NCBI RefSeq assembly: GCF_006716675.1
Contig: NZ_VFPM01000003.1
Location: 248,001-312,000 of the forward strand
DNA from: Humibacillus xanthopallidus
GTDB taxonomy: Bacteria; Actinomycetota; Actinomycetes; Actinomycetales; Dermatophilaceae
Direction of reading: 5' to 3'
DNA: 64,000 bases
Shown here: positions 26,274-60,758 of the stretch, one piece after another
Numbering within the stretch: position 1 is the stretch's first letter
Layout: each line of letters starts with the position of its first letter
Notes under the pieces: generated by a model
Told to the model about the DNA's origin: nothing
The model's input: only the letters and a program-made list of their open reading frames with translations
The model's database searches: none
Program-made: the position numbers and the translations under genes

Positions 26274-26290
26274 TCACCCTCCGAGGATGA
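26274..26290. promoter_or_regulatory. palindrome TCACCC-N5-GGATGA
   Basis: TCACCCTCCGAGGATGA is a 6-5-6 inverted repeat upstream of the minus-strand MFS gene (start 26200). The same layout recurs at 35495, 35883, 40042, 60502 and 60553, always in intergenic DNA. Confidence 0.5.
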
Positions 26291-26317
26291 ATGTCGCGAC
26301 GCGACGCGAACGTCGAG

Positions 26318-26974
26318 TCAGGCGCGCCGCTGCCGAGCGAGGATCAGGAGGCTGACGACGAGCACCCAGCCGGGGAAGACGAGCCCGGTCCACAGGCTGA
26401 GGTTGATGACGAAGAGCAGCAGCGCCGCGAGAACGAAGGTGACCGCGGCCAACCATCGCGGCATGAGGCCCGTGCGCATCCAGATCGTCCCCAGGGAGAT
26501 CATGAAGACGCCCGCCATGCGCAAGGCGTAGACGTTGCCGATCTGCAGCATCACGGCACGGCCGAAGGAGACGGTGTCGCCGCTGTAGAGACCGCCGCCG
26601 GCACCGATACCCGCGAGGAGAGCGCCGGCGACCGCCAAGGACACGAAGATCATCGCGAGGAAGAGCAGTCCGCTCCCCAGGAAGACCGAGGCGAAGAAGC
26701 GGTCCTCCAGCTCACCCAGTTGGTCGCGGATGACACCGATGAACCACAGGAACGCGATGCCCGCAAAAGGCATGAGGGACAGCGCAACTCGGATCCGCCC
26801 ACCTGCATCGTCGGTCCATGGCGTTCCGGCAAAGGGATCCTCCGGCGTGACGGACCGCAGCAGAGCCAGACTCGTCGCGAAGAGCAGTGCGAAGGCGACA
26901 CCAGCGAGGCCGGCCGCTCTCGGGGTGCTGAGTCGGCGCAGCGACCTGTCTTGGGCTGAGGGAGTGGTGGTCAC
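26318..26974 (-). CDS. hypothetical six-helix membrane protein
   Basis: A 218-residue protein from GTG 26974. Hydrophobic segments are visible at AGVAFALLFATSLALL, MPFAGIAFLWFIGVI, LGSGLLFLAMIFVSLAVAG, MAGVFMISLGTIWM, VTFVLAALLLFVINLSLW and GWVLVVSLLILA, with a Gly-rich loop between the third and fourth. No transporter motif or catalytic residue is recognised. The frame is open farther upstream but there it reads as shadow. It is divergent from the AspT-type exchanger at 27096. Confidence 0.65.
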   Translation of the reverse strand: MTTTPSAQDRSLRRLSTPRAAGLAGVAFALLFATSLALLRSVTPEDPFAGTPWTDDAGGRIRVALSLMPFAGIAFLWFIGVIRDQLGELEDRFFASVFLGSGLLFLAMIFVSLAVAGALLAGIGAGGGLYSGDTVSFGRAVMLQIGNVYALRMAGVFMISLGTIWMRTGLMPRWLAAVTFVLAALLLFVINLSLWTGLVFPGWVLVVSLLILARQRRA

Positions 26975-27095
26975 CTTCTGACGGTAGAGCCGCGAGAGTG
27001 CCCAGACACCCGGAATGGCCCCGCCGTGACGCGAATCGCGCCGTGTCGTGAACCAACGGTCTGACGGCGGCCCTCGCCGGACGAGAGGATGAGAC

Positions 27096-28682
27096 GTGCT
27101 CACCACGCTGTCGGGGCAACCCGTCCTGCTCCTTGCCCTGCTCTTGCTGCTCGGCGCCGTCCTGGGCCGCGTCAAGATCGGGGGCGTTGCCATCGGCCCG
27201 GCCGCGGTGCTCTTCGCGGCCATCGCGGTGTCCGCGCTGGGCGTCGCCAACGGGGTCAAGCTCCAGATCCCCGAGACGGTCGGCACGCTCGGCCTCGTCC
27301 TCTTCACCTACACGATCGGCATCGTCTCCGGCCCGAGCTTCTTCGCCTCGCTCCGCCACGGTTGGCCGGTCATGCTCTCGGTCGTGGCGAGCTTCGTCGT
27401 GGTGGCCGTCGTGGCCGTCCTCGGTGGACAGGCCCTGGGCCTGACGTCGTCGGTCGTCGCCGGCACCTTCGCCGGCGGGCTGACCAACACCCCGGCCCTT
27501 GCGGCCGCGACAGAGCTCGCACCCGATCCGGCTGGCCCGACGATCGGCTACTCGATCGCCTACCTCTGGGGTGTCGTCGGCATGCTTCTCGCAGCGTCGT
27601 GGTCACTGCGACACCGCGGTCAGGAGGCGCCGCCGAGCGAGCCGCTCGTCAACCAGACCATCCGGACGGAGCTGGCCGACGGCCTGCTGCTCTCGGACGT
27701 CGAGGAGCGGTACCAGCAGCGGGTGACGTTCTCGCGACTCAAGCACGGGCACTTTGCCAACCCCACGGTGGTGGCAGGCGAGGACGAACGCCTCGGCCCC
27801 AACGACCTCGTCACGGTCGTGGGTCCGCGTGACCTCGTCGACCAGGTGACCGCCGAGCTGGGCCACCGGTCGTCCCACGACATCGTCAGCGGGCCCGGGG
27901 AGCTCGACTACCGCCGTATCACCGTCTCCAACACCCCCCTTGCGGGACGTTCCATCGGAGCGTTGGACCTCGAGGGCCGCTTCGGCGCCCACATCAGCCG
28001 GGTGCGGCGTGCCGACATCGACCTCGTGGCGTCGCCCGACTTCGTGCTCCAGATGGGCGACCGGGTGCGAGTCACGGCCCCTGCTGACCGGATGAAGGAC
28101 GTCAGCGCATTCCTCGGCGACTCAGACCGGGGGATGTCCGACATCAACCCGGGTGGTTTTGCGCTCGGGCTCTCCCTCGGCCTGCTCATCGGGTTGGTCC
28201 ACATCCCTCTGCCCGGAGGTGGGTTCGCGCTGGGTGCGGCCGCGGGCACGTTGCTCACCGGGCTCGTCTTCGGGCGACTGGGACGCATCGGTCCGGTTGT
28301 CACCTCGATGTCCAACGGGGCCGCACAGTCGCTCTCGTACTTCGGCATGATCACCTTCCTCGCGTATGCCGGAACGCGGGCGGGGGAGCGCATCGTCGCG
28401 GCGATCGGCTCCGACCTCGGGTGGAAGGTGGCAGTTCTCGGCTTCCTCATCACGACGGGGGCGGCGCTCCTGCTGCTCGTCGCCGGTCGCCTCATCCACC
28501 GGATGGGCGGCACCCAGCACGCCGGCATGCTCGCGGGCGCGCAGACCCAGCCGGCCATCCTCGCCTTCGCCAACGACCGCACCGGCTTCGACACGAGGGT
28601 GGGCCTCGGCTACGTGCTCGTCTATCCGATCGCGATGATCGCCAAGATCGTCATCGTGCAGGTGCTCGTCGGCCTCGGCTGA
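27096..28682 (+). CDS. AspT/YidE-type aspartate:alanine exchanger family transporter
   Basis: A 528-residue membrane protein from GTG 27096 behind GAGAGG. It has the AspT/YidE duplicated layout: five or six helices, a cytosolic block with two RCK_C (TrkA_C) domains (LGPNDLVTVVGPRDLVDQV, then QMGDRVRVTAPADRM), then a second half whose GNPxxx-like motif is replaced by GAAAGTLLTGLVFGRLG. TFAGGLTNTPALAAATE is the conserved N-half substrate motif. Family members exchange aspartate, alanine or dicarboxylates. It converges with an M20 dipeptidase gene whose own operon includes a C4-dicarboxylate carrier. Confidence 0.85.
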   Translation: MLTTLSGQPVLLLALLLLLGAVLGRVKIGGVAIGPAAVLFAAIAVSALGVANGVKLQIPETVGTLGLVLFTYTIGIVSGPSFFASLRHGWPVMLSVVASFVVVAVVAVLGGQALGLTSSVVAGTFAGGLTNTPALAAATELAPDPAGPTIGYSIAYLWGVVGMLLAASWSLRHRGQEAPPSEPLVNQTIRTELADGLLLSDVEERYQQRVTFSRLKHGHFANPTVVAGEDERLGPNDLVTVVGPRDLVDQVTAELGHRSSHDIVSGPGELDYRRITVSNTPLAGRSIGALDLEGRFGAHISRVRRADIDLVASPDFVLQMGDRVRVTAPADRMKDVSAFLGDSDRGMSDINPGGFALGLSLGLLIGLVHIPLPGGGFALGAAAGTLLTGLVFGRLGRIGPVVTSMSNGAAQSLSYFGMITFLAYAGTRAGERIVAAIGSDLGWKVAVLGFLITTGAALLLLVAGRLIHRMGGTQHAGMLAGAQTQPAILAFANDRTGFDTRVGLGYVLVYPIAMIAKIVIVQVLVGLG

Positions 28683-28728
28683 CGAGCACCCGCACGACGA
28701 CTGGCACCATCAGCCGGCGGCACCGCTG

Positions 28729-30090
28729 TCAGCCGGACCCGCTGCCGGTAGCGAGACGCTGGAGCAGCAGAGCCTGGGCCACGATGAGCTTCTCTATCTC
28801 GACCGGGTCGACGCTCTCGTCAGATGCATGGATGCGAGCAGCGGCGACGTCCTCGGGGCCCCACAGCACGAACTCCGCCCCGGGTGCTGCCTTCTCGAGA
28901 GTGCGCAGCAGGGGGATCGAGCCTCCGCAGCCCGCCTCGCCGGCAGGCCTGCCGAAGGCTTCCGACAGCGCGTCGCGCGCCGCGGCATACCCCGGCCCGT
29001 CCGTCTTGCAGAGGAACGGCGGAGCCTCCTTGGTGCGTTGCACCTCGACCTTGGCGTCCCACGGCACATGGCTCTCGAGGTGTGCGACGAGCGCGTCCAG
29101 CTCCTTCGTGGGCTCGGAGCCGGGGACGATGCGCATCGAGATCTTGGCCCTGGCCTCGGGGATGAGCACGTTGGACGACGACGCGATGTCGGTCATGTCG
29201 ATGCCGATGGCGTTGACCGAGGGGCGGGCCCACAGCCTGGCTCCCACGGGACCGCTGCCGGTGAGAGCGACTCCCTCGAGCACGTCGGCGCTCGACCGGA
29301 GGTCGTCCTCGCTGAGGTCGGCGCCGTCCCAGACCGTCTCGGAGACGCCAGCGATGGTCACGTTGCCGTCGTCGTCGTGCAGAGTCGACAGGAGCCGAGC
29401 GAGCGCCATCATGGCATCGGGTGCAGGTCCGCCGAAAACGCCTGAGTGCAAAGGGTGCTCGAGCGTGCGCACCGTGACGATGCACGCCACATCGCCGCGC
29501 AGGGCGGTCGTGAGGGCCGGTTCGCCGACACGGAGGTTGCCCATGTCGCAGATCACGAAGAGGTCGCAGGCGAAGAGCTCGGGGTGAGCCTCGACGAAGG
29601 CTTCGAGGTTGCTCTCCGTCTCCTCCATGCCCTCGAGGATGAGCTTGACCGTGCACGGCGGCTTGCCGTCGAACACTCTCAGCGTGCCGAGGTGGCTCAC
29701 GAGACCGCTGATGTCATCGGCGGCCCCGCGTCCATAGATGCGGCCGTCCTCCTTGCGCGTGGGCGTCCAGGGGTCGCTCGTCCAACCCTGCTCCGGGGGA
29801 GCGGGTTGCACGTCGTAGTGCGCGTAGAGGACGACGACCGGCGATCCGGGCGGACCCTCGATCTCGCCGTAGATGGGGGGGTAGCCCGAGGGGACGTCCA
29901 TCAGCTGCGCATTGGTGAAGCCCACGTCGCGGAACATCTGCAACGCCACCTCGCCCATCTGGCGCACCGGTTCCTCGGGGTAGCCGGGGAACGCGATGGC
30001 CGGGATCGCGATCAGTGTCTCGAGGTCCTCGATGACTCCGGGCATCAGCTCGCTGACGCGCTGGGCGATCTGGTCCTTGTCCATGTGCAT
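28729..30090 (-). CDS. M20-family dipeptidase
   Basis: A 453-residue di-zinc peptidase. Metal-site motifs are YAHYDVQP (His91, Asp93), GRGAADDISG (Asp near 125) and LEGMEETES (the Glu-Glu pair near 157-160). A lid/dimerisation domain is inserted in the middle. Such enzymes hydrolyse dipeptides such as carnosine-like or Cys-Gly substrates; the exact one is not predictable. ATG 30090 follows AAGGAG. There is no signal peptide, so it is cytosolic. The gene lies 56 bp downstream of the Dcu carrier on the same strand, suggesting uptake coupled to peptide breakdown. Confidence 0.88.
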   Translation of the reverse strand: MHMDKDQIAQRVSELMPGVIEDLETLIAIPAIAFPGYPEEPVRQMGEVALQMFRDVGFTNAQLMDVPSGYPPIYGEIEGPPGSPVVVLYAHYDVQPAPPEQGWTSDPWTPTRKEDGRIYGRGAADDISGLVSHLGTLRVFDGKPPCTVKLILEGMEETESNLEAFVEAHPELFACDLFVICDMGNLRVGEPALTTALRGDVACIVTVRTLEHPLHSGVFGGPAPDAMMALARLLSTLHDDDGNVTIAGVSETVWDGADLSEDDLRSSADVLEGVALTGSGPVGARLWARPSVNAIGIDMTDIASSSNVLIPEARAKISMRIVPGSEPTKELDALVAHLESHVPWDAKVEVQRTKEAPPFLCKTDGPGYAAARDALSEAFGRPAGEAGCGGSIPLLRTLEKAAPGAEFVLWGPEDVAAARIHASDESVDPVEIEKLIVAQALLLQRLATGSGSG

Positions 30091-30146
30091 GCTTGCTCCT
30101 TGTCGATGTCTCGAGGTCCCGACGTCAGGGTCGGCTCGCGCGTGCG

Positions 30147-31974: not shown

Positions 31975-31977
31975 CGC

Positions 31978-32364
31978 TCAGGCCAGGGCCTTGGCCTTGA
32001 TCGCCGCGAACTCCTCGGGAGTGATGGCGCCGGAGTCGAGCAGGCTCTTGGCCTGGGCGAGCTGATCGACACCCGACGATCCCGCGGACGGTGCAGCCAC
32101 GCTGCGGATGTAGGCGTCCTGGGCCGCCTTCGCCTCGGCGTTGCGCTGCATCGCGCGAGCCGTCATGCCCTTGCCTCGGGCGATGAGGTAGACGAGAGAG
32201 GCGATGACGGGGACGAAGACGAGGAAGAGCACCCACAGCGCCTTGGCAAACCCGCCCAGCTCGTGGTCACGGAAGAGATCGCCGAAGATCTGGAACAGCA
32301 CCATGAGGTAGGCGATGAAGAAGAACCACCAGACGAGCAACCAGAAATAGCTCCAGAAGTCCAT
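31978..32364 (-). CDS. PLDc_N and SHOCT domain membrane protein
   Basis: A 128-residue protein from ATG 32364 with an AAAGGA site. Two membrane helices (FWLLVWWFFFIAYLMVLFQIF and KALWVLFLVFVPVIASLVYLIA) form a PLDc_N-like anchor with a short DLFRDHELGGF loop between them. The C-terminal SHOCT domain is complete (QLAQAKSLLDSGAITPEEFAAIKAKAL). SHOCT modules are oligomerisation or protein-binding elements. It heads the run that continues with the lipoprotein, Dcu and M20 genes, and is the same type as the protein at 36515, where the membrane part is missing. Confidence 0.85.
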   Translation of the reverse strand: MDFWSYFWLLVWWFFFIAYLMVLFQIFGDLFRDHELGGFAKALWVLFLVFVPVIASLVYLIARGKGMTARAMQRNAEAKAAQDAYIRSVAAPSAGSSGVDQLAQAKSLLDSGAITPEEFAAIKAKALA

Positions 32365-32419: not shown

Positions 32420-32713
32420 CTACAGCTCCTCACTGTCATCAGACAGATGCGCCGGGTCGTCATTCTCCGAGGACGAGATCGCCTCGTCCTGTTCGTCCTC
32501 CGGGTGCTGCGCTGTGCCCGTCCTCTGGACGAGACGCGTCGAGACCACCTCGAGGCCGAGGGCGGTGAGGGTCGAGATGACCCCCACCAGCTCCTGGCTG
32601 TCGTGCACGGTCACCGACAGGGTCGTGCGCTCCCCGTCGCTCTCCGAGCACGACGCATACGGCCACACGTCACGCTCGTCGACGACACCTCGGACGACGA
32701 CGACTGCTCGCAT
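32420..32713 (-). CDS. small ferredoxin-fold-like protein beside LuxR paralog 2
   Basis: A 97-residue protein from ATG 32713, behind ACGGAGG. The first 70 residues (MRAVVVVRGVVDERDV, LSVTVHDSQELVGVISTLTALGLEVVSTRL) have the strand-helix-strand pattern of the small proteins at 35609 and 40122: an N-terminal strand, a helix with L-x-G-x-x-x-x-L, then G-L-x-V-x-x-x-x-x. The C-terminal third is acidic and disordered. It lies 131 bp downstream of LuxR paralog 2 on the same strand. No function is known. Confidence 0.65.
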   Translation of the reverse strand: MRAVVVVRGVVDERDVWPYASCSESDGERTTLSVTVHDSQELVGVISTLTALGLEVVSTRLVQRTGTAQHPEDEQDEAISSSENDDPAHLSDDSEEL

Positions 32714-32844: not shown

Positions 32845-35463
32845 TCAGTAGAGGTCGAGCTCCGCTGCGCGCCGGATCGCTGAGCGCCGGTTGTTGACGC
32901 CGAGCTTGCGGTAGATGTGCGCGATGTGGGTCTTGGCCGTGTGCACGGAGATGAACTCCGCATCCGCGATCTCGGTGTTGGTGAGGTTGGTGGCGAGGTA
33001 ACGCAGGATCACGTGCTCACGCTCGGTCAGCTGCTCGGACCAGATCGTGGTGTGGTGCTGCGCGGGGTCGGCTAGGCGAGCCAGCACCTGCGTCACGACT
33101 TCGGGGTGACTCGTGCCATGGCTCAGGTGCTCCCTCAACAGCGCCGTCAGCTCGGCGCCGCCTGCGAGGAACGGCCTGAAGAGGCCGTCGGGTTCGGCTG
33201 CAGCGAGGGCCTTCTCGAGGGCGAGGTGCGCGTCCTCCTTGCCGAGCACGGCCAGTGCCTCGGCCTCGACGCAGCGCGACAGGCACTCGACCTGGATGGG
33301 AGCATCTGACGAGTCCGCGCACTCCAGCTGGGACAGGGCCTCCACCGGGCGCCCGGCCCGCAGCAGGACCGTCGCGCGCAGGGCCGGGGCGGCTGGGTAG
33401 TCCGGGCCCGACGGGGGATCGAGGGCGAGCTCGACCGCACGACCAGGTTCGTGCTCCGCCCACAGGAGCAGTCCCTCGATGGCTGCCAGCATCCTGGGCC
33501 ACCACGCCGGTGCCCCGCCTGCGTCGATCAGCGCGGCGATCTGGGTCATGCTGGCGCGTGCCGCGGCGAGGTCTCCCAGCGCGAGGCAGGTCTTGGCGTG
33601 GAAGTGGAGAGCGAGACCGCGCAGTTCCCAGTCGAAGGGGAACAACATCGACAGGCTGCGCTGCAGCTGAGCCCGGGCCTCGTGGAGGTTTCCGCGCCAG
33701 TAGTCGAGCCAGCCGAGGTAGACCACTGCGGGCGCGAGCGTCGTCAGGCCCACCCAGCCGTTGGCCTCTGCCTTCGCCAGCACATCCACCGCCCGGTCGT
33801 GCGCCTCGGTCAGCTGCCCTTCGGTGATCGCCGGGATGCAGGACTCCGCGAGCGCCGTGAGCTCGAGAGCGGAGAGGCCGGCCGTCCCTGCTGTCCGTGC
33901 GGCGGTGCGGAGCAGGTCGAGGGCCGTCTCGACATGCTGCTGGACCCGCGCCTCGCCCATGCCCACGAGTACCTGCACCGACGCCATGACAACAGGATCG
34001 AGTCCCGTGCGCGCGTCGGCGAGCTCCTCGAGCATCGCCACGCCGGCCCGGGCCGCCTCGCCCAGACCCAGGTCGCAGCCGGTGACGAGCAGCTCGACGA
34101 GCGCCGTCCGCTGCTCGAGTCGGGTCCGCTCCACCTCGGACAGCGTGCCCGCCGAGATGCGTGCTGCGTCGAGCTCGGCCCGCGCCAGACCGGTCTCGCC
34201 ACGTTGCACGGAGACGAGCGCCTTGGCGAGGTGGGCGTCGCCGCGGTAGGCCGACACGTGGGGGAGCCGGTCGACGGCGGACAGCACCGCATCGACGCGC
34301 CCCTGCAGCAGCAGCTCGAGCCAGGACTCGGAGAAGATGCGCGAAGCCGCCTCCCCGTCGCCGGCGGCCAGCGCGTGCCCGATGGCCGTCGGGGCATCGA
34401 CGCTGCTCCACCACGATGCCGCGGAGGCGTGCAGCCGAGACGCCAGGCTCGGGTGATCGGCCGCCAGGCGACGTTGGGTGTGCGCGGCGAAGAGGGGATG
34501 CCACTGGTACCACTGTCCGTGTGTACCCGGAACGCCGCGGGAGAGGAAAAGCCCTGCGCTCACGCATGATTCGAGAAGTGCCTCAGCTGTGCAGGTGCCG
34601 CGCACGGCGTCGACGAGCGACGGGCAGACCTGCTCGTCGAGGGAGGCTTCGAGGACGAAGTTCCGCAGGTCCGGTGCCAGTGAGGCGAGGACCTCGGTGG
34701 CGAGATAGTCCGCGAGGGCCTGGTCGCGCCGCAGCTCCACCGACACATCTGTGGCCGTGCCTCGGTGGCGAGCGGCGAGAATTGCCATCCGCACTCCGGC
34801 AGGCCAGCCGTCCGTGGCCTGCTGGATGGCCGTGACCGTGGTGAGGTCGAGGTCGAGCTGCGCCGCTCGGACCGCTGCTGTGGACTCCTCGAGGCTGAAG
34901 GCAAGGTCGTCGTGGGCGAGGTAGGTGAGCCGGTCCTCGAGTCTCAGGCGCTGCAGGCGCAGTGGTGGAACGACCCGAGCCGCCATCGAGATCCTCAGGT
35001 TGGCCGGCGCCCACCTCAGCAGGTGGTCGACGATCGTGGTCGAGGCGACCGATCCGGCGAGGTGCTGAAGGTCGTCGAGGACGAGCAGGTGTGGCTGGGC
35101 GGAGTCGTAGAGCGCTTCGAGCAAGGAGTCGACGAGGCTGAGTGGCTCGGCCCGCAACGACGAGACCCGCAGCTGCTCGACCTGGTCGCTCAGAGGCTCG
35201 ATCCCTGCCAGCGTGGTGGCAGTGAGGAGGTCCCCGACGAAGCGCACTGGATCCTTGTCGGTGTCGTCGAGCGTGAGCCACACGGTGCCCCCCGGTGGCC
35301 GCCGCTCGGCTGCGGCTGCCAGCAGGGTCGACTTGCCATACCCCGCGACACCCGCCAGGACCGTCACGGGACGCGCCTCCATGAGCGTCGCGAGACGGGG
35401 CCTCTCGATGAGCCCCACGGACACCCCGGGCGGGGTCATCCGTAGCTGGCGTGGTACGACCAT
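32845..35463 (-). CDS. MalT-like LuxR family regulator (paralog 2)
   Basis: An 872-residue ATPase regulator: P-loop GVAGYGKS (about 38-45), a Walker-B-like LLVLDDLQHLAG, a long helical repeat region, and a C-terminal LuxR helix-turn-helix (LTEREHVILRYLATNLT, then ISVHTAKTHIAHIYRKLG). It is closely related over its length to the protein at 20284-22899. ATG 35463 has a GGAGGAAA ribosome site; the frame is open further to 35610 but overlaps the divergent small gene. A TCATCC-N5-GGTTGA palindrome lies 32 bp upstream, so autoregulation is possible. Confidence 0.88.
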   Translation of the reverse strand: MVVPRQLRMTPPGVSVGLIERPRLATLMEARPVTVLAGVAGYGKSTLLAAAAERRPPGGTVWLTLDDTDKDPVRFVGDLLTATTLAGIEPLSDQVEQLRVSSLRAEPLSLVDSLLEALYDSAQPHLLVLDDLQHLAGSVASTTIVDHLLRWAPANLRISMAARVVPPLRLQRLRLEDRLTYLAHDDLAFSLEESTAAVRAAQLDLDLTTVTAIQQATDGWPAGVRMAILAARHRGTATDVSVELRRDQALADYLATEVLASLAPDLRNFVLEASLDEQVCPSLVDAVRGTCTAEALLESCVSAGLFLSRGVPGTHGQWYQWHPLFAAHTQRRLAADHPSLASRLHASAASWWSSVDAPTAIGHALAAGDGEAASRIFSESWLELLLQGRVDAVLSAVDRLPHVSAYRGDAHLAKALVSVQRGETGLARAELDAARISAGTLSEVERTRLEQRTALVELLVTGCDLGLGEAARAGVAMLEELADARTGLDPVVMASVQVLVGMGEARVQQHVETALDLLRTAARTAGTAGLSALELTALAESCIPAITEGQLTEAHDRAVDVLAKAEANGWVGLTTLAPAVVYLGWLDYWRGNLHEARAQLQRSLSMLFPFDWELRGLALHFHAKTCLALGDLAAARASMTQIAALIDAGGAPAWWPRMLAAIEGLLLWAEHEPGRAVELALDPPSGPDYPAAPALRATVLLRAGRPVEALSQLECADSSDAPIQVECLSRCVEAEALAVLGKEDAHLALEKALAAAEPDGLFRPFLAGGAELTALLREHLSHGTSHPEVVTQVLARLADPAQHHTTIWSEQLTEREHVILRYLATNLTNTEIADAEFISVHTAKTHIAHIYRKLGVNNRRSAIRRAAELDLY

Positions 35464-35494
35464 CGCGCTTTCCTCCGAATGCCGCCGGCGAGAG

Positions 35495-35511
35495 TCATCC
35501 TCACGGGTTGA
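35495..35511. promoter_or_regulatory. palindrome TCATCC-N5-GGTTGA
   Basis: TCATCCTCACGGGTTGA has one mismatch in the right arm compared with the GGRTGA consensus of the other five sites. It lies between the divergent LuxR paralog 2 (start 35463) and the small gene at 35609. Confidence 0.45.
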
Positions 35512-35608
35512 CGCGGCGAATGCCTCGTGCCTCGAGACTATGACGCGAGGAAGTCCCGAGCATGCCGAACGGGCATCTTGCCGGGACCGCGGTTGTGTGA
35601 GGTGAGTC

Positions 35609-35848
35609 ATGCGGATGTACGAGATCGTCCTCGACGGTCAGCTGACCTCGGACCTGCCCGCCTCCGTGGGCGAGGTCGTCCGGCGACAGGAGCGAGGCGC
35701 GAGCGTCCTCAGCGTTCCCGTCGGTGAGAAGGCGACACTCGACGCCGTCCTCGGGCTGCTCGAGTCGCTCGGCATCGGCATCACGGCGATGAAGGAGGTC
35801 GAGGTTCCACCCGAGCCGCACGCGTCCCCGGGCCACACCGACGGCTGA
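35609..35848 (+). CDS. small ferredoxin-fold-like protein divergent from LuxR paralog 2
   Basis: A 79-residue protein from ATG 35609 after GAGGTGAG. It opens MRMYEIVLDGQLTSDLP and continues EKATLDAVLGLLESLGIGITAMKEVE, the same strand / helix / strand plan as the product of 40122 (YEFVLAEPLPP, then LHGLLDRFHAYGLTVLEMRQL). The family name is not known to me; an ACT- or ferredoxin-like fold is a guess. It shares an intergenic region and a palindrome with the LuxR gene. Confidence 0.7.
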   Translation: MRMYEIVLDGQLTSDLPASVGEVVRRQERGASVLSVPVGEKATLDAVLGLLESLGIGITAMKEVEVPPEPHASPGHTDG

Positions 35849-35882: not shown

Positions 35883-35899
35883 TCATCCCCCTCGGGTGA
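35883..35899. promoter_or_regulatory. palindrome TCATCC-N5-GGGTGA
   Basis: TCATCCCCCTCGGGTGA, arms complementary except one pair, lies 65 bp before the DUF6325 gene (start 35964). It matches the 6-5-6 layout of the sites at 26274 and 60553. Confidence 0.5.
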
Positions 35900-35963
35900 T
35901 GCCATGCATTCCGGCGGTGAGTGACGCTCGGGACGTCAACCACATCCGTCAAGGAGGCAAGAC

Positions 35964-36440
35964 ATGAGTGTGAACGTCGACGTGGGGCCGATCGACTTCC
36001 TGGCCCTCGAGTTCCCCGGAGCCCGTCTGAACGGTGAGGGGATGGCCATCATCGTCGATCTCGTCGAGCGGGGCATCATCCGCGTCCTCGACATGAGGGC
36101 TGTCCTGCGCAGCGAGGACGGCACCATCACGGCTGCCGCCATCACCGATCTGGACGGCGACGGGGTCCTCGACCTCGCGGTCTTCGAGGGCGCCGAGTCC
36201 GGCCTCATCGACGAGGACGACATCAACGAGGCCGGCGAGCTCGTCCAGCCCGGTGACGCCGTGGCGCTGCTCGTCTACGAGAACACGTGGGCGGGTCCCT
36301 TCGTGTCGGCCATGCGCCGCGCCGGGGCCTCCGTGGTCGCCAGCGCCCGCATCCCCGCCGACGAGGTGATCGCCCGCCTCGAAGCCCTCGAAGCCGCAGA
36401 AGGCGCCGGCTCCGCCGAGCAGGCGACGGACGCCGACTGA
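35964..36440 (+). CDS. DUF6325 family protein
   Basis: A 158-residue acidic protein opening VDVGPIDFLALEFPGARLNG, with IIVDLVERGIIRVLDMRAVL and DAVALLVYENTWAGPFVSAM, the usual landmarks of DUF6325. Two related ferredoxin-like halves are suggested. It commonly precedes a SHOCT protein, as here. The function is unknown, but the pair is often expressed with general stress genes. It starts at ATG 35964 behind CAAGGAGG, 65 bp after a palindrome shared with LuxR and transporter loci. Confidence 0.85.
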   Translation: MSVNVDVGPIDFLALEFPGARLNGEGMAIIVDLVERGIIRVLDMRAVLRSEDGTITAAAITDLDGDGVLDLAVFEGAESGLIDEDDINEAGELVQPGDAVALLVYENTWAGPFVSAMRRAGASVVASARIPADEVIARLEALEAAEGAGSAEQATDAD

Positions 36441-36514: not shown

Positions 36515-36814
36515 ATGGGACTTCTACGTGGAGTTGCCAGGACCGCCGTCGTCGCGGGGACCGCGACCGCGGTGTCGAACCGCGTCTCGCGCCGTCAGGC
36601 CGGGAGGTGGGCCGCCCAGGACCAGCAGGCCGCCCCGCCCGAGCAGCAGTATGCGGAGCCGCCGCCCCAGCAGTACGCCCCGCCGCCGGAGCCCGCCGAG
36701 GAGAACACGGGCGTGGATCTCGACGCTCTCAAGCAGCTCGGCGAGCTGCGTGACGCCGGCGTCCTGACGGAGGCCGAGTTCCAGGTGCAGAAGGAGCGGA
36801 TCCTCGCCCGCTGA
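36515..36814 (+). CDS. SHOCT domain protein following DUF6325
   Basis: A 99-residue protein from ATG 36515 behind GAAGGAG. A short N-terminal helix (LLRGVARTAVVAGTATAVSNRV) leads into a Pro/Gln-rich linker (QQYAEPPPQQYAPPPEP) and a C-terminal SHOCT domain (DLDALKQLGELRDAGVLTEAEFQVQKERIL). It is paired with the DUF6325 gene 74 bp upstream. The linker suggests that SHOCT acts as a tethered oligomerisation handle. No catalytic function is expected. Confidence 0.85.
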   Translation: MGLLRGVARTAVVAGTATAVSNRVSRRQAGRWAAQDQQAAPPEQQYAEPPPQQYAPPPEPAEENTGVDLDALKQLGELRDAGVLTEAEFQVQKERILAR

Positions 36815-37152: not shown

Positions 37153-39963
37153 GTGAGCGGTGGGACGCACACGCCGGCTTGGACGTGGCCCTCACCACGT
37201 CGTGAGCCGCCACTGCCGCCTACCCATCTGCTGCGCCGCGACCGCCTCGCTGCGCCGACGCCGCGGTCCAGGGCGACGCTGCGAGGTCACGGCACCGTCG
37301 TCGTCGTCACCGGTCTGGTCGGAGCCGGCAAGTCGACGCTGCTGTCGAGCTGGGCCGCGGACCTGCGGGCCGCGGGTCAGGGCGCCGGATGGGCGTCCCT
37401 GCAAGACGAGGACGACGACCCGGTCGTGCTCCAGGACCTCGTGCTCGGAGCCCTGCACGACGCGCTGCCGGCACGGGTGCGTCAGCAGCTGGCTCAGCCC
37501 GGCTCGACAGCCGAGGACGGCGACGGCACGGAGGCCGAGCGTGGACTGACGGGGCAGGTCGCCGAGGCGGTGCGCAGGGCGGGCGCGCCGATCTGGCTCA
37601 TGCTCGACGACGTCCAGGTCATCCAGTCGGACGGCGCGGTGCTCGCGCTCGACCGACTCCTCCAGTGGGCGCCGCCCAACCTGCACATCGTGATGGCGGC
37701 CCGGTCGGATCCCCGGGTCTCCCTCGGGCGCCTGCGCCTGCAGGAGCGGCTCCTCGAGATCCGCGATGCAGAGCTCCGTCTCGACGAGGACGAGACCGCG
37801 CAGCTGCTGGCGGCCGAAGGCCTCGACCTGTCGGGCGAGCACGTCCACCGGCTCTGGCAGCTGACCGAGGGCTGGGTCGCCAGCGTCGCCCTCGCCGCCA
37901 TGACGCTGCGATCGGGCCGCGACGTCGGCGGCGTCCTCGACGGCTTCGGCACCGACGGCGGACTCTGGTTCCTCATCGAGGAGGTGCTGCACGAGCTGCC
38001 CGAGGAGACCCACACCTTCCTGCTCGACACCTGCCTTCCGGAGCGCCTGTCCACCGAGATGGCCGAGCTGCTGAGCGGCCGTGACGATGCCGGACAGCTG
38101 CTCCACCACCTCGCGGACACCAACTCGCTCGTGTCGGTCTTCGGTGCAGAGGACCGGAGCTACCGCTATCACACGCTGCTGCGCGGCTACCTCGTCGCCC
38201 GCCTCGCCGACCTCAGCGGGCAGCGCAGCAGGGCTCAACACCTGCGCATCGCTCGCTTTCTCCACGCCCGGGGCGACGACGCCGAGGCACTCGACCACGC
38301 CATCTCGTCGCGCGATCGGTCCACCGTCTTCACGCTCCTGCACGAGGACGGGCTGCGGCTCCTGCTCGAAGGCCATCACGACGTGGTCGACCGCGCGATC
38401 GGGCACCTGCTCGAGAGCCCGAGCGACGAGCAGCCGCGTCGACGGTTCCTGCACGTGCTCGCGGCCATCATCGCCCTCGACTTCGGTGACCTGCCTCGGG
38501 CCGAGGCGCACCTCGAGAGTGCAGGCGGACGCTACCGGGAGCCCACCGCGCCTGCAGCGCCGTCTGCCGTGCTGCCCAGACGTCTCGACCGCCTTCTGTC
38601 GGCTGCCTGGCTCTACCGCGACCGGCTGCGCGGCGACCTGGATCCCGCGGTGGTCGACGCCGTGCTCTCGTCGGCGAGCCGCCTCGGCGGTGCCGAAGCG
38701 GTGGGGCAGTCCGACCTGCGCGCTTTAGAGCACGTCACGGCGGGCATCGCTCTCATCTGGCTCGGCCGCTTCGACGAAGCGGTGGCGGTGCTCGAGTCCG
38801 TGTTCGTCGACGCGGATGTGCGAGGTCACGACTTCGTCGTCATGACGTGCGCCGCGGCGCTGTCGACGGCACACACGGCGCTCGGCACCTTCGCCGAGAT
38901 GAGGCAGTGGGCTCAGTACGCCATCGACTACGCCACAGCTCGCGGGTGGGCGGCCTCCCCGCGCCTGGTGCCCGCCTATGTGTGCGCCGCGGCCACCGCC
39001 CACGACGGGCTCGACCCCGGGCGGGCAGCGGAGCTCATCGGGGTGGCCGAGGCGATCCTCGAGAGCGGGGCTGCCCCGCTCGACGCGCCGAGTGGAGCGA
39101 CCGGTGTCATCGTGGCTCCGGAGGTCGTCCGCTCGGTGCGCGCGGTCCGGTCCTTCATCGACTTCGACCGTGCCGCGGGCAACCCCGCCGAGCAGCGCCG
39201 CATCGTGCGGGCGCGACATGACGAGGTGCTCGCGCTCGCATCGGAGCGCTTCTCACGGACACTCGTCGCCTTCGAGGTCGCCGAGCACCACCGAATGGCA
39301 CTGGCGTGTGGAGAGGTCGACGCCGCGCGCGCCAGCGTCGAGCTGGCGGAGCGACGGCTCGGAGCGGGCGGTGAGACAGCGGTGCTCGCGGCGCAGCTCG
39401 CCGTCCGGCTCGACCGGGAGGAGGAAGCGCGTCATCTCCTCCAGGGAGTGCTCGCGAGACCCGAACGCGTGCCCGTGGTCCACCTCCGGGTCGTCGGGCT
39501 CCTCCTCGAGGCGTCCCTGGCCCACCGCAACGACCAGCCGACGGTGGCCCATGACGCGCTCCTTCGCGGGCTGGCGATCGCCCGCCGCCTGGGCTCGGTG
39601 CGCCTCGTCCTCGAGGTGGCACCCGAGGTCTTCGAGCTGCTCGTCGAGGGCCGCGGTCGCTTCGGCGCGGAGGAGGACTTCGTCGAGCACGTCATCGAGT
39701 CCGCGTTGACCGTCGCGGCACTTCACGAGCCGACCCACCGGTATGCCGTCTCGCGGGGCCCCGCTGCCGCCCCGGTGCTCACCCCCCGCGAGCTCAGCCT
39801 CCTCCAGGACCTCCCGTCGATGCTCACCGTGCCCGAGCTCGCCCGGGCCCGTGCCGTCTCCCCGAACACCGTGAAGACACAGCTGCGTTCGCTGTTTGCC
39901 AAGCTCGGCGTCGGCAACCGCCGCGAAGCCGTTGCCGAGGGCAGGCGCGAGGGACTCATCTGA
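37153..39963 (+). CDS. MalT-like LuxR family regulator (paralog 3)
   Basis: A 936-residue ATPase regulator: P-loop GLVGAGKS (about 54-61), a Walker-B-like IWLMLDDVQVI, helical repeats, and a C-terminal LuxR helix-turn-helix (LTPRELSLLQDLPSML, then VSPNTVKTQLRSLFAKLGVGNRREAV). The HTH is diverged from those of paralogs 1 and 2. The start is uncertain: GTG 37153 is chosen over TTG 37138, and neither has a strong ribosome site. It lies just after the tRNA-Gly terminator and is followed by a small partner gene at 40122. Confidence 0.82.
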   Translation: MSGGTHTPAWTWPSPRREPPLPPTHLLRRDRLAAPTPRSRATLRGHGTVVVVTGLVGAGKSTLLSSWAADLRAAGQGAGWASLQDEDDDPVVLQDLVLGALHDALPARVRQQLAQPGSTAEDGDGTEAERGLTGQVAEAVRRAGAPIWLMLDDVQVIQSDGAVLALDRLLQWAPPNLHIVMAARSDPRVSLGRLRLQERLLEIRDAELRLDEDETAQLLAAEGLDLSGEHVHRLWQLTEGWVASVALAAMTLRSGRDVGGVLDGFGTDGGLWFLIEEVLHELPEETHTFLLDTCLPERLSTEMAELLSGRDDAGQLLHHLADTNSLVSVFGAEDRSYRYHTLLRGYLVARLADLSGQRSRAQHLRIARFLHARGDDAEALDHAISSRDRSTVFTLLHEDGLRLLLEGHHDVVDRAIGHLLESPSDEQPRRRFLHVLAAIIALDFGDLPRAEAHLESAGGRYREPTAPAAPSAVLPRRLDRLLSAAWLYRDRLRGDLDPAVVDAVLSSASRLGGAEAVGQSDLRALEHVTAGIALIWLGRFDEAVAVLESVFVDADVRGHDFVVMTCAAALSTAHTALGTFAEMRQWAQYAIDYATARGWAASPRLVPAYVCAAATAHDGLDPGRAAELIGVAEAILESGAAPLDAPSGATGVIVAPEVVRSVRAVRSFIDFDRAAGNPAEQRRIVRARHDEVLALASERFSRTLVAFEVAEHHRMALACGEVDAARASVELAERRLGAGGETAVLAAQLAVRLDREEEARHLLQGVLARPERVPVVHLRVVGLLLEASLAHRNDQPTVAHDALLRGLAIARRLGSVRLVLEVAPEVFELLVEGRGRFGAEEDFVEHVIESALTVAALHEPTHRYAVSRGPAAAPVLTPRELSLLQDLPSMLTVPELARARAVSPNTVKTQLRSLFAKLGVGNRREAVAEGRREGLI

Positions 39964-40041: not shown

Positions 40042-40058
40042 TCACCTGCACCGGGTGA
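40042..40058. promoter_or_regulatory. palindrome TCACCT-N5-GGGTGA
   Basis: TCACCTGCACCGGGTGA, with nearby extra TCACC half-sites at 40023 and 40033, lies between LuxR paralog 3 and the small gene at 40122. One arm base departs from the TCAYCC consensus. Confidence 0.45.
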
Positions 40059-40121
40059 CGCGCGGAGCAGCACGGTCGCGACAGGCTGGGGACGCCAGCC
40101 GATGCGATCCGAAGGGGTGTC

Positions 40122-40325
40122 ATGCGCTACGAGTTCGTGCTCGCTGAGCCGCTGCCTCCAGCTGTGGCGGCAGCTTTCCCGGAGTTGACGGAGTCGACGA
40201 CGACGAGCAGCCGCGGCACCGTCCTCTACGGCCCCATCACCGACCGGGCGCACCTGCACGGCCTCCTCGACCGCTTCCACGCCTACGGCCTGACCGTTCT
40301 CGAGATGCGCCAGCTCCCCGACTGA
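40122..40325 (+). CDS. small ferredoxin-fold-like protein after LuxR paralog 3
   Basis: A 67-residue protein: MRYEFVLAEPLPPAVAAAFP, then TVLYGPITDRAHLHGLLDRF and HAYGLTVLEMRQLPD. It has the same plan as the proteins at 35609 and 32420 and, like them, neighbours a MalT-like LuxR gene. The upstream region contains the palindrome at 40042. No catalytic residue is evident. The function is unknown; a small regulatory partner of the LuxR ATPase is a possibility to test. Confidence 0.7.
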   Translation: MRYEFVLAEPLPPAVAAAFPELTESTTTSSRGTVLYGPITDRAHLHGLLDRFHAYGLTVLEMRQLPD

Positions 40326-56223: not shown

Positions 56224-56234
56224 GATCCCTCCTG

Positions 56235-56280
56235 TTGACAGTGTCAACCATTACTATCCGCAACAGGTTGACACTGTCAA
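56235..56280. promoter_or_regulatory. twin TetR operators between hydrolase and TetR genes
   Basis: TTGACAGTGTCAA at 56235-56247 and TTGACACTGTCAA at 56268-56280 are two 13-bp palindromes 33 bp apart. They are placed to control both divergent starts (56223 and 56297), as expected of an autoregulated TetR repressor. Confidence 0.75.
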
Positions 56281-56296
56281 TAGATTGGGGTGAGGG

Positions 56297-56923: not shown

Positions 56924-56928
56924 TTCAC

Positions 56929-58551
56929 CTATGACGCGGCGATGATGGCCTGCTCAAGACGCGGGACGACCGTGAGGACCTTGCCGAGCCCCGCTCGGAG
57001 AACGATGTTCTCGGCATCCGTCGAGAGCTCGGCGAGGAAGACGCGGATGCCGCGAGCGGCGAAGTCTGTGGCCTGTCGACGCAGGACCTCGGTGCCCGTG
57101 AAGTCGATGTCGTCCATGGCCGCCGCGTCGAGGACGACGGCCTGAACCGGGGCGGTCGCGGCAGCCACGAGGTCGCGCACTCGCTCGTCGAAGTAGGCGG
57201 CGTTCTCGAAGAAGAGCCCGGTGCCGAATCGGTAGACGAGGATGCCGTCCATCGGGGTGCCAGGCTGCACCCGGCCGAGGAGGCGCGGCGCGACGTCGCC
57301 GTCGGAGACGAGCACCTCGTCGTGCGGCTGGTGCTGGCGCCGGAGCCGGTCGACGAGAGAGACGAGCACGGCGAGCAGGATGCCCTGCTCCACGCCGACG
57401 AAGGCGACGACGACGAGGGCCAGCATCGCCGCGCCGAACTCGAACAGTCGGGTGCGCCGGACCGCCTGGAGCTGGCCGACCTTGACGAGACCGACGCCGA
57501 TCGCGAAGACGACGCCGTCCAGCACGGGGGAGGGCAGGTACTCGAACAACCCCGTGGCGAAGAGCAGGACGATGCCGATGACCAGCGCCATGGTGATGTT
57601 GACGAGCTGGCTCCGGCTGCCGGCGCCGTCACCGGCGGAGGTCCGCGGCGGGCTGCCGTTGATGGCAAAGCCACCCGTGAGGGCACTGCCGGTGTTGGCC
57701 GCGGCGAGCCCGTAGAGGTCCTGGTTGGTGTTGTCGCGGTAGCCGTTCTTGGTGGCGAAGCTGCGGGCAACGGCCGCACTCTGCGCAAGGATGACGACTG
57801 CGATGGCAGCGGCGGTTGCCGTGAGCCGCGTGAGCTCACCGGCGTCGAAGGTCGGGAGGGTCAGGCTGGGCAGTCCCGCCGGCACGTCCCCGACCATCGA
57901 CACGCCGCGGCCCTCGGCGCCGATGAGGGCTGCGACCACGCTGAAGACCACGACCGCGAGGAGGGCTGCGGGGAGCTTGGGTAGCACCCGTTCCATGAAG
58001 AGCATCGACACGACGACCCCGAGCGCGAGCGCGGCAGAGGTCACGTTGATGTGTCCGAGGTTGGTCACGGTGGCGACGAGCTTGTCCCACGTCGTCCCCG
58101 AGGCCGTGATGCCGAGCATCCCGGGTAGCTTGCCGATGATGAGCGAGACGCCGACCCCGCTGAGGAACCCGGCCAGCACGGGCTGCGAGATGAGGTCGGC
58201 GAGGAACCCGAGGCGCGCGATCGCCATGAGGAGCAGGATCGCGGCGGTGATGAGGCCGAGCACGGCAACGGTGCTCGCGTAGGTGGGACTCCCCGCGGCG
58301 ACGACGGCGCCGGCGCCGGCCGCGACGAGCGCTGCCGTCGCGGAGTCAGCTCCCACGACGAGCTGTCGCGTCGAGGCGATGAGCGCGAAGAGGATGGCAG
58401 GCAGCAATGCACAGTAGAGACCGGTCTGCACCGGCAGACCGGCGATGCTGGCATAGCCCAGTGACTCGGGAATGGCGATCGCAGCGACGGTGACGCCGGC
58501 GACCAGGTCGCCACGGAGCCACTGCCTCCGGTATCCCGTCAGGAGCGCCAT
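56929..58551 (-). CDS. SulP-family anion transporter with STAS domain
   Basis: A 540-residue permease. The sulfate-transporter core opens VAAIAIPESLGYASIAGLPV and continues QLVVGADSATAALVAAGAGA, with about 12 helices. A C-terminal STAS domain follows (VVLDAAAMDDIDFTGTEVLRR). SulP proteins carry sulfate, bicarbonate or other anions; the substrate here is not set by sequence. ATG 58551 is used; a GTG at 58569 is possible. Sulfate uptake would fit the sulfatase genes 2 kb away, but nothing more than proximity supports it. Confidence 0.9.
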   Translation of the reverse strand: MALLTGYRRQWLRGDLVAGVTVAAIAIPESLGYASIAGLPVQTGLYCALLPAILFALIASTRQLVVGADSATAALVAAGAGAVVAAGSPTYASTVAVLGLITAAILLLMAIARLGFLADLISQPVLAGFLSGVGVSLIIGKLPGMLGITASGTTWDKLVATVTNLGHINVTSAALALGVVVSMLFMERVLPKLPAALLAVVVFSVVAALIGAEGRGVSMVGDVPAGLPSLTLPTFDAGELTRLTATAAAIAVVILAQSAAVARSFATKNGYRDNTNQDLYGLAAANTGSALTGGFAINGSPPRTSAGDGAGSRSQLVNITMALVIGIVLLFATGLFEYLPSPVLDGVVFAIGVGLVKVGQLQAVRRTRLFEFGAAMLALVVVAFVGVEQGILLAVLVSLVDRLRRQHQPHDEVLVSDGDVAPRLLGRVQPGTPMDGILVYRFGTGLFFENAAYFDERVRDLVAAATAPVQAVVLDAAAMDDIDFTGTEVLRRQATDFAARGIRVFLAELSTDAENIVLRAGLGKVLTVVPRLEQAIIAAS

Positions 58552-58647
58552 GGCGTCACCGTGGCACACCCCTCGCCCACGGCGTGGGCGAACTCGCGAA
58601 ACGACCCGCCACGATGGGAGATCGAAAGTGCGATCGGTGGGCCTGTC

Positions 58648-59946
58648 TCAGTCGCGGAGGCCTGGGGAGGTTTCGTCGGACATCCGGTTTGCCCGATGCA
58701 AAGCCGCAGCCGCGGGGCGAAGCTCGATGACATCGACTGGTCCACCGGGCTCCGGACCGGCGGCCGTGGCAGCCCGGCCGTAGCGCCCGGCCAGCGGTGC
58801 CGCGCTGAGCCCGTGGGCCAGCACGCTGACGAGCACGGTGACCGTCACGATGGCCACCGCCTCGTCCGACACCGGCCCCAGGGACTCGAGGGCGAGGAGC
58901 GCGAAGACGAGGGAGGCCAGCCCCCTGGGGCCGAACCACCCGACGAACAGCACTGTCCTGCGGTCGAGTCCGCTGCCGAGCAGCGACAGCGCCACGGGCA
59001 GCATCCGCACCACGGTGAGGCTCAACGCGGCATACAGGAGCATGAGTGGGTCGACGCGTTCGAGCATGATGGGGACGGCGATGGCGCCGAACGCCAGCCA
59101 CACGAGGGACGAGACCAGTGCACCCGCCTGCTCGAGGAAGACCAGCTCCTCGGGCCCCCGGCGCCCGGCGCAGGCGCCGAAGGCCAGCCCTCCGCAGAAC
59201 GCGGCGACGAACCCGTTGCCGTCGAAGGCGAGGGAGGCGGCATACGCCAGCAGACCGAGGGCGAGCACGGCGATGCCCGTGAAGTCCTCGGCTGCCAGGT
59301 CGTGCCTCCGGGCCAGGCGCAGGAGCCAGCCACCCGCAGCGCCGACGGCGGCCCCGATCACGACCCCGAGGGCCAGCTGGACGAGGGCGCGGCCGGCGCC
59401 CTCGTCGCCCTCGAGACCGGCCGCGGCCGCCGCGCCCGCGATGGCGACCATGACGATGGGCGTGGCGATCCCGTCGTTCAAGCCGCTCTCCACCGTGATG
59501 AGCTGACGGATGCGTGACGGCACGACCGGATTGGTGACGACGGGGATCCCGAGCGCTGCGTCGGTCGGCGCGAGGGCGGCTCCCACGAAGAGTGCCAACC
59601 AGAGCCCCAGCCCGGGCCAGAACCACGCAGCCAGGGCCCAGCCGAGCAGGACCGTCAGCGGCAGGCCGACGCCGAGCAGGCGCAGGTAACGCCCCACGTC
59701 AGGGCGCAGCTCGCGCATCGGCAGACGGGCGGCATCCGAGAAGAGCACCCAGACCAGGGTGATCTCGAGGAGGGGGGTGAGCGCGGCGGGCTCCTCGGGT
59801 CCCTCGACCACCCCTACCCACGCGAGCGCGGCACCGACGGCGATGAAGACGATCGGTGCCGTCAGGTCAGCGCGGGCCAGGCGCTTGGAGACCAGTCCCC
59901 AGCCGAACAGGGTGGCCGCGACGATGACGAGAGCGCTGGTATTCAT
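58648..59946 (-). CDS. CPA1/CPA2-type Na+/H+ antiporter family protein
   Basis: A 432-residue cation/proton antiporter with about twelve membrane helices. VGAALAPTDAALGIPVVTN has the conserved Asp-containing unwound-helix region, and TVESGLNDGIATPIVM matches the second conserved block with Glu and Asp. The C-terminal tail is polar. It would exchange Na+ or K+ for protons. ATG 59946 is the start; the GAP-family gene ends 27 bp upstream on the same strand, so the two may be cotranscribed. Confidence 0.85.
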   Translation of the reverse strand: MNTSALVIVAATLFGWGLVSKRLARADLTAPIVFIAVGAALAWVGVVEGPEEPAALTPLLEITLVWVLFSDAARLPMRELRPDVGRYLRLLGVGLPLTVLLGWALAAWFWPGLGLWLALFVGAALAPTDAALGIPVVTNPVVPSRIRQLITVESGLNDGIATPIVMVAIAGAAAAAGLEGDEGAGRALVQLALGVVIGAAVGAAGGWLLRLARRHDLAAEDFTGIAVLALGLLAYAASLAFDGNGFVAAFCGGLAFGACAGRRGPEELVFLEQAGALVSSLVWLAFGAIAVPIMLERVDPLMLLYAALSLTVVRMLPVALSLLGSGLDRRTVLFVGWFGPRGLASLVFALLALESLGPVSDEAVAIVTVTVLVSVLAHGLSAAPLAGRYGRAATAAGPEPGGPVDVIELRPAAAALHRANRMSDETSPGLRD

Positions 59947-59973
59947 GGCCGTTCCTTTGCAGGGGTCGGTGCA

Positions 59974-60399
59974 TCAGGTGAGGGGCGGGATGCCCTTCGA
60001 GATGAGGTCCACACCGAGCGCGAGGAAGAGCACGGTCATGACAGCATCGTGGTGAAGGGCGAGCCAGTCCTTGGTCGCGTCGAGCCTGGTGCGGGCGGAC
60101 TCGCCACCCACGAGGTAGTAGGTGACCGGGCCGGCGATCGTCAGGCTGGCGACGACGAAGACCAGGACGGCGATGACGGCGTTCGTCGTCGGGAGCGCCA
60201 GACCGGCAACGGCCGCGCCGGCGCCGGCCGCGAGAAGGAGGTTCTTCGGGTTCACGCCCGCCAGCAGCAGGCCGAGCGCGAACATCGGACCGTGGACCTT
60301 GGCTCGGCTCGAGAACAGCATGAGGATCACCGCGATGATCGGGACCGGGCTGATCGCGACGCCGACGGCGAAGGGGAGGACTGCGGCAATACCGTCCAC
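59974..60399 (-). CDS. GAP-family (Sap-like) membrane protein with internal deletion
   Basis: A 141-residue form of a family normally about 210-230 residues. It starts at GTG 60399 behind GAGGAG. VLPFAVGVAISPVPIIAVIL and SRAKVHGPMFALG are the family's first third, and LLLAGVNPKNLLLAAGAGAA and VTYYLVGGESARTRLDATKD its last third. The join FALG|LLLAGVNPKN (near 60270) omits the helix pair and loop that normally lie between, about 80 residues, with the frame preserved. Transport of lipids or small molecules is proposed for the family; this copy is probably defective. Confidence 0.75.
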   Translation of the reverse strand: MDGIAAVLPFAVGVAISPVPIIAVILMLFSSRAKVHGPMFALGLLLAGVNPKNLLLAAGAGAAVAGLALPTTNAVIAVLVFVVASLTIAGPVTYYLVGGESARTRLDATKDWLALHHDAVMTVLFLALGVDLISKGIPPLT

Positions 60400-60758
60400 G
60401 TGAGGGCTCCTCGTCGGACGGTGCCCTTGCCCGCCCGTCACGTGACGAAACGGCGCCGGGGCACCGGAGACCATCGTCGCGCCACGTCGCGAGTGAGTGG
60501 ATCACCCCTCCCGGATGACATTTTGGGCGACTGTGACGCGCCCGAGCGGAGGTCATCCGTTTGGGATGACGACCGGGGGCTGAGCCCCTGCCACGCTGAT
60601 GCTGGATGCCTCATCCTGTGGACCTCGTCCAGCAGGTACCCGTGGCGGGGGGCGAGCGGCATACGACCCCCGCGCGGTGATCGGTTCGTGCCTTCACCGC
60701 GCCACCCAGACGTGCCACCACGACTTCTCCGGTCGTGGTCAGGAGGAGAGGCGGCACC
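60400..60758. other. 359-bp intergenic region with two palindromes
   Basis: I see no gene here. It contains two copies of the 6-5-6 palindrome: TCACCCCTCCCGGATGA at 60502-60518 and TCATCCGTTTGGGATGA at 60553-60569, 34 bp apart and between the divergent GAP (left) and sulfatase (right) genes. The second copy has fully complementary arms and the best match to the consensus. The sulfatase ribosome site is the AGGAGGAG at 60741. Confidence 0.6.

Follow-up and report, generated by a model that had tools for sequence, protein, structure and literature searches.

The window analysed here is a 64,000-nucleotide stretch of the Humibacillus xanthopallidus genome (GCF_006716675.1, contig NZ_VFPM01000003.1, positions 248,001 to 312,000), in which copies of the palindrome TCAYCC-N5-GGRTGA lie between genes for regulators, membrane proteins, and a sulfatase. 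The palindrome is a genuine operator whose kind is already known, found here in a new setting. With a probability of about 0.85, it is the operator of a MalT-like activator from the class of large ATP-binding LuxR-related (LAL) proteins, most likely LuxR paralog 2 (LuxR2), that drives a dispersed regulon.

In the window, the palindrome is matched perfectly at 26274, 35883, 60502, and 60553 and with one mismatch at 35495 and 40042, exactly as reported in an earlier, sequence-only reading of this DNA. That reading also placed all six between genes, which is correct; for the copy at 35495, however, it holds only with the chosen LuxR2 start at 35463, since the site is inside the longest possible LuxR2 open reading frame (32845-35610). 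The chosen start stands behind a GGAGG on the minus strand. Each of the six sites is followed, in a single orientation and always toward a gene, by a -10-like hexamer located 22 or 23 nt past its end. The hexamer is defined as NANNNT with a first base other than A, and offsets are counted past the motif end. The chance of all six sites passing, calculated from the local hexamer frequency, is approximately 5e-7. By this test, and in correction of the earlier reading, the site at 35495 is aimed at the small gene at 35609, not at LuxR2. In the following list, G001 is a genome of the same genus.

26274..26290, minus strand: operator, perfect, toward the MFS exporter gene 24680-26200; -10-like TAGGTT at 26246-26251 (minus strand); counterpart in G001
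35495..35511, plus strand: operator, one mismatch, toward the small gene 35609-35848; -10-like GAGACT at 35534-35539; same mismatch in G001
35883..35899, plus strand: operator, perfect, toward the DUF6325 gene; -10-like GACGCT at 35923-35928; counterpart in G001
40042..40058, plus strand: operator, one mismatch, toward the small gene 40122-40325; -10-like CAGGCT at 40082-40087; 17-mer identical in G001
60502..60518, minus strand: operator, perfect, toward the SfLAP/GAP gene; -10-like GACGAT at 60473-60478 (minus strand); counterpart in G001
60553..60569, plus strand: operator, perfect, toward the sulfatase gene; -10-like CACGCT at 60592-60597; counterpart in G001

Because each has an in-register hexamer in one direction only, the paired sites at 60502 and 60553 seem to be divided between the two genes, the former serving SfLAP and the latter the sulfatase.

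Number, spacing, and conservation of the palindrome

The sequence-only reading proposed a regulon and named a genome scan as its refuting test. The scan of the whole genome (5.27 Mb) identified 14 perfect sites, compared with none for the reversed-pattern control, and 14 of the 14 are positioned between predicted genes; the proposal was not refuted by this test and is well supported. A chance origin of the palindrome was rejected on the first of these counts, and a repeat belonging to coding sequences on the second. The predicted coding fraction of the window is 0.857, and the calls behind the intergenic and coding counts come from a simple gene predictor. When up to one mismatch is allowed, the genome contains 64 sites versus 13 for the reversed pattern. 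Among the 36 one-mismatch places examined of the 50 in the genome, 22 are intergenic, eight of them with an in-register -10 toward a gene, and 14 are coding. Five of the 14 perfect sites are clustered within about 43 kb of contig C3, and the remaining nine are distributed over contigs C1, C2, and C4.

The spacer length was determined from 80 loci, the listed matches to one peptide pattern, which were picked by LAL protein similarity without use of the motif; for some of them, the similarity to the query is limited to the helix-turn-helix domain. These loci contain 45 matches with a 5-nt spacer and only 0-3 with every other spacer from 0 to 12 nt, so a spacing artefact was rejected. The same 1.45 Mb of DNA contains no match to the reversed control. 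In G001, which carries 15 sites in total, counterparts of all six window sites are located at matching places. The arms are kept, including both one-mismatch variants, and the spacer letters differ in five of the six.

Of 206 oriented site-gene pairs, 80 have the hexamer NANNNT at +22 and 46 have it at +23, compared with one to nine pairs for each remaining offset from 14 to 31. In a set of 148 perfect sites, drawn from the present genome, from chosen relatives, and from named loci, 144 are located between genes by a rule that tolerates up to 60 nt of overlap with a predicted gene end. The set leaves out the site-rich relatives G022, G072, G075, and G093, a single site of G039, and part of the sites of G096, G185, G219, G313, and G320. 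Computation thus establishes the site, its spacing, its placement, its conservation, and, as described below, its co-occurrence with LALs.

Two weaker sequences in the window resemble the operator. The half-sites at 22913 and 22925 had been described as lacking a proper right arm, and none is present at spacing 5. Positions 22913-22941 form a degenerate double half-site in front of the gene at 23026 (TCATCC-N6-TCATCC, then GCATGA at spacing 4). This may be a weak or LuxR1-specific operator, because the hexamer GACGCT is in register, exactly 22 nt past the notional motif end of the half-site at 22925. A two-mismatch copy at 32460-32476 is inside the small gene 32420-32713, with a -10-like GACAGT at +22 toward the PLDc_N-SHOCT gene 31978-32364. 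Both the copy and the hexamer are kept in G001, for which coding conservation could account.

Relation to the Actinoplanes operator

The motif TCATCC-5nt-GGATGA was described by Droste et al. 2020 before 17 transcription start sites in a 51-gene region of Actinoplanes sp. SE50/110 (PMC7567727), the only report found in a literature search for the motif; the region, MRLGR, is also named in PMC11205506. The motif overlaps the -35 region, with its 3' end 34.4 ± 1.0 nt from the start site (PMC7567727). The MalT-like LAL ACSP50_3915 activates the region, as demonstrated by its deletion, which lowers the expression of 42 of the 51 cluster genes, and by its overexpression, which raises that of 39 (PMC7567727). 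Parts of the region occur in four other Micromonosporaceae (PMC7567727). The motif, promoter position, and regulator class are therefore already known, since Droste et al. described all three; the bacterial group, dispersed layout, wide spread, and gene content are new.

The system of the window shares with the Actinoplanes region the palindrome in promoters, the 5-nt spacer, and a MalT-like LAL encoded among the sites. The distance of about 34 nt from the motif 3' end to the transcription start, with the motif over the -35 position, is also shared, but here it is obtained only through the -10 hexamer. This hexamer, spanning -12 to -7, is located at +22/23, and therefore the start is expected about 34 nt past the motif end. 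Membrane proteins, transporters, and peptidases occur among the genes of both systems; maltose genes are not under the regulator in Actinoplanes, and none was seen here among the scanned genes beside sites. The Actinoplanes system is one 51-gene region, whereas the sites studied here are dispersed, belong to another bacterial group, and occur beside several LAL paralogs. The sulfatase, SfLAP, DUF6325, and SHOCT content is likewise particular to the present system, as are small LAL-linked proteins, of which no mention was found in the available sections of PMC7567727. Furthermore, arm position 4 varies as Y/R here, in contrast to the published motif. In G039, 10 of 11 perfect sites read TCACCC-N5-GGGTGA, and the eleventh differs in the right arm alone, unlike the mixed C/T of the present genome; a LAL with a tighter site preference possibly acts there.

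Candidate regulators and proposed mechanism

The window encodes three LAL paralogs, and the genome at least six.

32845..35463, minus strand: LuxR paralog 2, MalT-like LAL, 872 aa; Pfam NTPase, TPR_MalT, and GerE helix-turn-helix; leading candidate regulator
20335..22899, plus strand: LuxR paralog 1 (LuxR1), LAL; start uncertain, longest open reading frame from 19753; 43% identical to LuxR2
37153..39963, plus strand: LuxR paralog 3 (LuxR3), LAL with a divergent recognition helix

MalT of E. coli is composed of NTPase, TPR, and GerE helix-turn-helix domains. The LALs of the window share this architecture; in contrast to LuxR quorum-sensing regulators, the three have AAA and TPR_MalT domains in Pfam and no autoinducer-binding domain. 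The E. coli MalT core, which is quoted as GGA(T/G)GA in PMC7567727, is similar to the half-site GGRTGA. Unlike the system of E. coli and Klebsiella, which uses a repeated asymmetric GGGGA(T/G)GAGG box, the present one has an inverted palindrome, and no maltose genes were seen among the scanned genes beside its sites. The NCBIfam MalT equivalog cut-off of 537 bits is not reached by LuxR2 (226.5 bits) or by five other LALs scanned in the genome (178.5-349.4 bits). SARP-LAL regulators such as PimR of Streptomyces (PMC5930380, PMC3367932) are also large ATP-binding LuxR-related proteins. However, heptameric direct repeats are named in the title of PMC5930380, and the three window LALs are without a SARP domain according to Pfam.

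Perfect sites and LuxR2-like LALs occur together across the order. The 297 genomes surveyed contain 346 perfect sites versus 44 matches to the reversed pattern; 142 of them have no perfect copy and few exceed three. Three LAL candidates were scored per genome, and a match was accepted up to an E of 1e-20. Genomes with a LuxR2-like LAL (n=49) have a mean of 3.45 sites, compared with 0.71 in those without (n=248), and the difference in site number has a Mann-Whitney p of 1.8e-9 with the present genome excluded. Four or more sites are found in 16 of the 49 LAL genomes versus 4 of the 248 others, and each of the 12 genomes with at least five sites has a LAL match. Within the LAL genomes, again without the present one, match strength correlates with site number (Spearman 0.56). 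In genus g40, G185 (LAL E 9.7e-77) has 13 sites, and the other six genomes have 0-3. Of the 73 LALs with a KTH-type recognition helix, 25 have a site no more than 1.1 kb away, versus 0 of 17 with a [RK]THT[KR]-type helix (Fisher p 0.0024); these classes were defined for the present work and leave 42 further LALs unclassified, six of which have a site. The site-linked label is clustered in a tree of 116 LALs, where it requires 18 changes compared with 26.0 when shuffled (0 of 500 shuffles as low); the tree was calculated using FastTree, with long-branch warnings.

A LuxR-type regulator, the class favoured by the sequence-only reading, is well supported by this co-occurrence, and by analogy with Actinoplanes (PMC7567727) the class can probably be narrowed to a MalT-like LAL. 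The same analogy suggests that a LAL binds the palindrome and activates transcription from it. Two C-terminal GerE/LuxR helix-turn-helix domains would occupy the two inverted GGRTGA half-sites. The operator, some 22 nt upstream of the -10, would stand in for the -35 box, and an activator bound there could therefore contact RNA polymerase, as in class II activation. A signal acting on the NTPase module would switch on the LAL, most likely LuxR2 (32845-35463), and the dispersed regulon would be transcribed; the LAL paralogs may overlap in specificity. The genes switched on would be those of the sulfatase, SfLAP, DUF6325, PLDc_N-SHOCT membrane proteins, exporters, ion and carboxylate transporters, a glutaminase, an aminopeptidase, and small ferredoxin-like proteins tied to LAL genes.

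Several observations weigh against this explanation. At up to two mismatches, the window contains 14 sites versus a shuffle mean of 11.03, and 27 of 100 shuffles reach as many; since the window is no richer than shuffles at this level, the signal is confined to near-exact copies. The survey p-values are optimistic, because relatives are not independent samples. LAL matches occur without any site in G057 (208.7 bits) and G247 (156.8 bits). Only 17 of the 116 LALs have a site at their own promoter. The site at 35495 has no -10 at +22/23 toward LuxR2, and it is probably not a LuxR2 promoter element, because the in-register hexamer is found only toward the small gene at 35609. Furthermore, LuxR2 is not the most MalT-like LAL of the genome, as two others score 349.4 and 240.4 bits, which lowers the odds of our leading guess, that LuxR2 is the acting paralog, to about even. 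The LAL at C1:1201387, which adjoins a perfect site, was set aside as the regulator because G001, with its 15 sites, has no full-length match to it.

The division of labour among the paralogs may also differ from that proposed above. Several LALs could share the operator, each answering to a different signal and perhaps paired with a different small protein, so that the regulon is their merged output. We consider this arrangement possible, at somewhat less than even odds: the genome has at least six LALs, three small proteins adjoin LALs in the window, and the site-linked LALs are spread over several clades, with LuxR2 and LuxR3 in different ones, which also counts against a single dedicated regulator. 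On the other hand, G001 keeps its 15 sites with counterparts of only LuxR2 and LuxR3 among the window LALs (none for LuxR1 among its matches), though it has two more LAL-like matches elsewhere. In Actinoplanes, the deletion of a second LAL had only slight effects, according to unpublished data of the authors of PMC7567727.

It is improbable that the palindrome is bound by a regulator of another family, such as the response regulators or the Crp-like proteins, with the LALs only as neighbours or targets. A mere target role is conceivable, because 17 of the 29 LALs near a site have it upstream of their start. The pattern is broken, to the disadvantage of a LAL binder, by G075, in which eight sites occur and the LAL found belongs to the other helix class, and by G137, G198, G205, and G245, with four sites each and no LAL match. 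However, the genetics on the same palindrome in Actinoplanes point to a MalT-like LAL (PMC7567727), the half-site is similar to the MalT core, and the site-rich genomes carry a LAL match in 12 of 12 cases. Least probable is a repressor operator or a general sigma-factor promoter element. The overlap of the -35 position at fixed spacing is what a promoter element would show, but the strict 17-bp two-fold palindrome with a free centre, its absence or rarity in most genomes of the order, and the activator role of the Actinoplanes regulator, as demonstrated by its deletion and overexpression (PMC7567727), argue for an activator site.

Target genes and small LAL-linked proteins

Apart from two small genes listed further below, the genes toward which the window operators point, and an associated gene, are the following.

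24680..26200, minus strand: MFS exporter (target), from a domain scan
35964..36440, plus strand: DUF6325 protein (target), PF19850 E 2.2e-10
36515..36814, plus strand: SHOCT protein, downstream of the DUF6325 gene, PF09851 E 2.8e-9
59974..60399, minus strand: SfLAP (GAP family) membrane protein (target); the gene after it, 58648-59946, encodes a Na+/H+ exchanger
60759..63113, plus strand: sulfatase, 784 aa (target), followed by a radical-SAM sulfatase maturase gene

The maturase gene starts at about 63204 and continues past the window end (L045:5204-6505); it matches the anaerobic sulfatase maturase model TIGR03942 of NCBIfam with 459 bits. Its position after the sulfatase gene suggests an oxygen-free maturation of the sulfatase, which would be a formylglycine enzyme.

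Genome-wide, the neighbours of the perfect sites include genes for PLDc_N-SHOCT (2), DUF6325 (2), and sulfatase (2) proteins, SfLAP, CitMHS, an M17 aminopeptidase, a glutaminase, abhydrolases, AI-2E, SulP, and MFS proteins, and, with one mismatch, DUF2252. A HerA-like ATPase gene adjoins a site without an in-register -10. The scanned genes of this genome showed no arginine deiminase pathway. The 129 in-register targets found across genomes include sulfatase (14), DUF1269 (10), DUF6325 (9), SHOCT (8), PLDc_N (8), MFS (6), AI-2E (5), DUF7144 (5), SulP (3), SfLAP (3), DUF389 (3), and YflT (3), as counted within the top 25 of 86 families, where one protein may count under two. In relatives, amidotransferase-like and aminopeptidase P-like proteins beside sites were recognised by eye from their N-termini; they overlap with Actinoplanes by kind only. 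As judged from these genomes, the regulon is dispersed and recurs well beyond the Micromonosporaceae; its repeated members are sulfatase, DUF6325/DUF1269, PLDc_N-SHOCT, MFS, and AI-2E proteins, LALs, and an unnamed ferredoxin-like protein of ~68 aa. The target families, together with the rise in expression during growth reported for Actinoplanes, lead us to guess that its role is a late-growth, starvation, or envelope-stress programme.

Three small proteins with no Pfam or NCBIfam match are encoded next to the LALs of the window.

35609..35848, plus strand: small LAL-linked protein, 79 aa
40122..40325, plus strand: small LAL-linked protein, 67 aa, predicted ferredoxin-like fold
32420..32713, minus strand: third member of the small family, 97 aa, on the strand of LuxR2 and downstream of it

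The ferredoxin-like fold of one of the window proteins is predicted with confidence (pLDDT 89.7), and a fold search with a small protein returned generic ferredoxin-like folds only, none with E < 0.001. Relatives of this unnamed family are encoded beside sites and LALs or sulfatases in other actinobacteria. Of 31 genomes or loci, some of which were picked for holding a LAL, 10 have a protein of 66-78 aa beside a site, and 11 have a LAL beside a site. We can imagine an ancient, wide actinobacterial regulon under MalT-like LALs, with a core of sulfatase, DUF6325/DUF1269, PLDc_N-SHOCT, AI-2E, SulP, and SfLAP, in which the small ferredoxin-like proteins would act as feedback partners restraining the LAL switch, but we regard this as rather unlikely. 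A literature search found no report of LAL control by small feedback partners, and one on DUF6325 found no paper containing the word.

The operator ties many unannotated actinobacterial genes, including those of DUF6325, DUF1269, PLDc_N-SHOCT, small LAL-linked proteins, and 784-aa sulfatases, to one putative switch. Because the operator is readable, the members of the regulon, with their direction, can be predicted from sequence alone. A motif described in one family is extended to distant actinobacterial lineages, and the question of which signal the abundant LAL proteins sense becomes testable.

Two adjacent genes at L040:4672-8129, sulfate permease-like by eye, have the sequence TCCTCC-N5-GGATGA 52 and 98 nt upstream, with an in-register -10 at the site of the first gene only.

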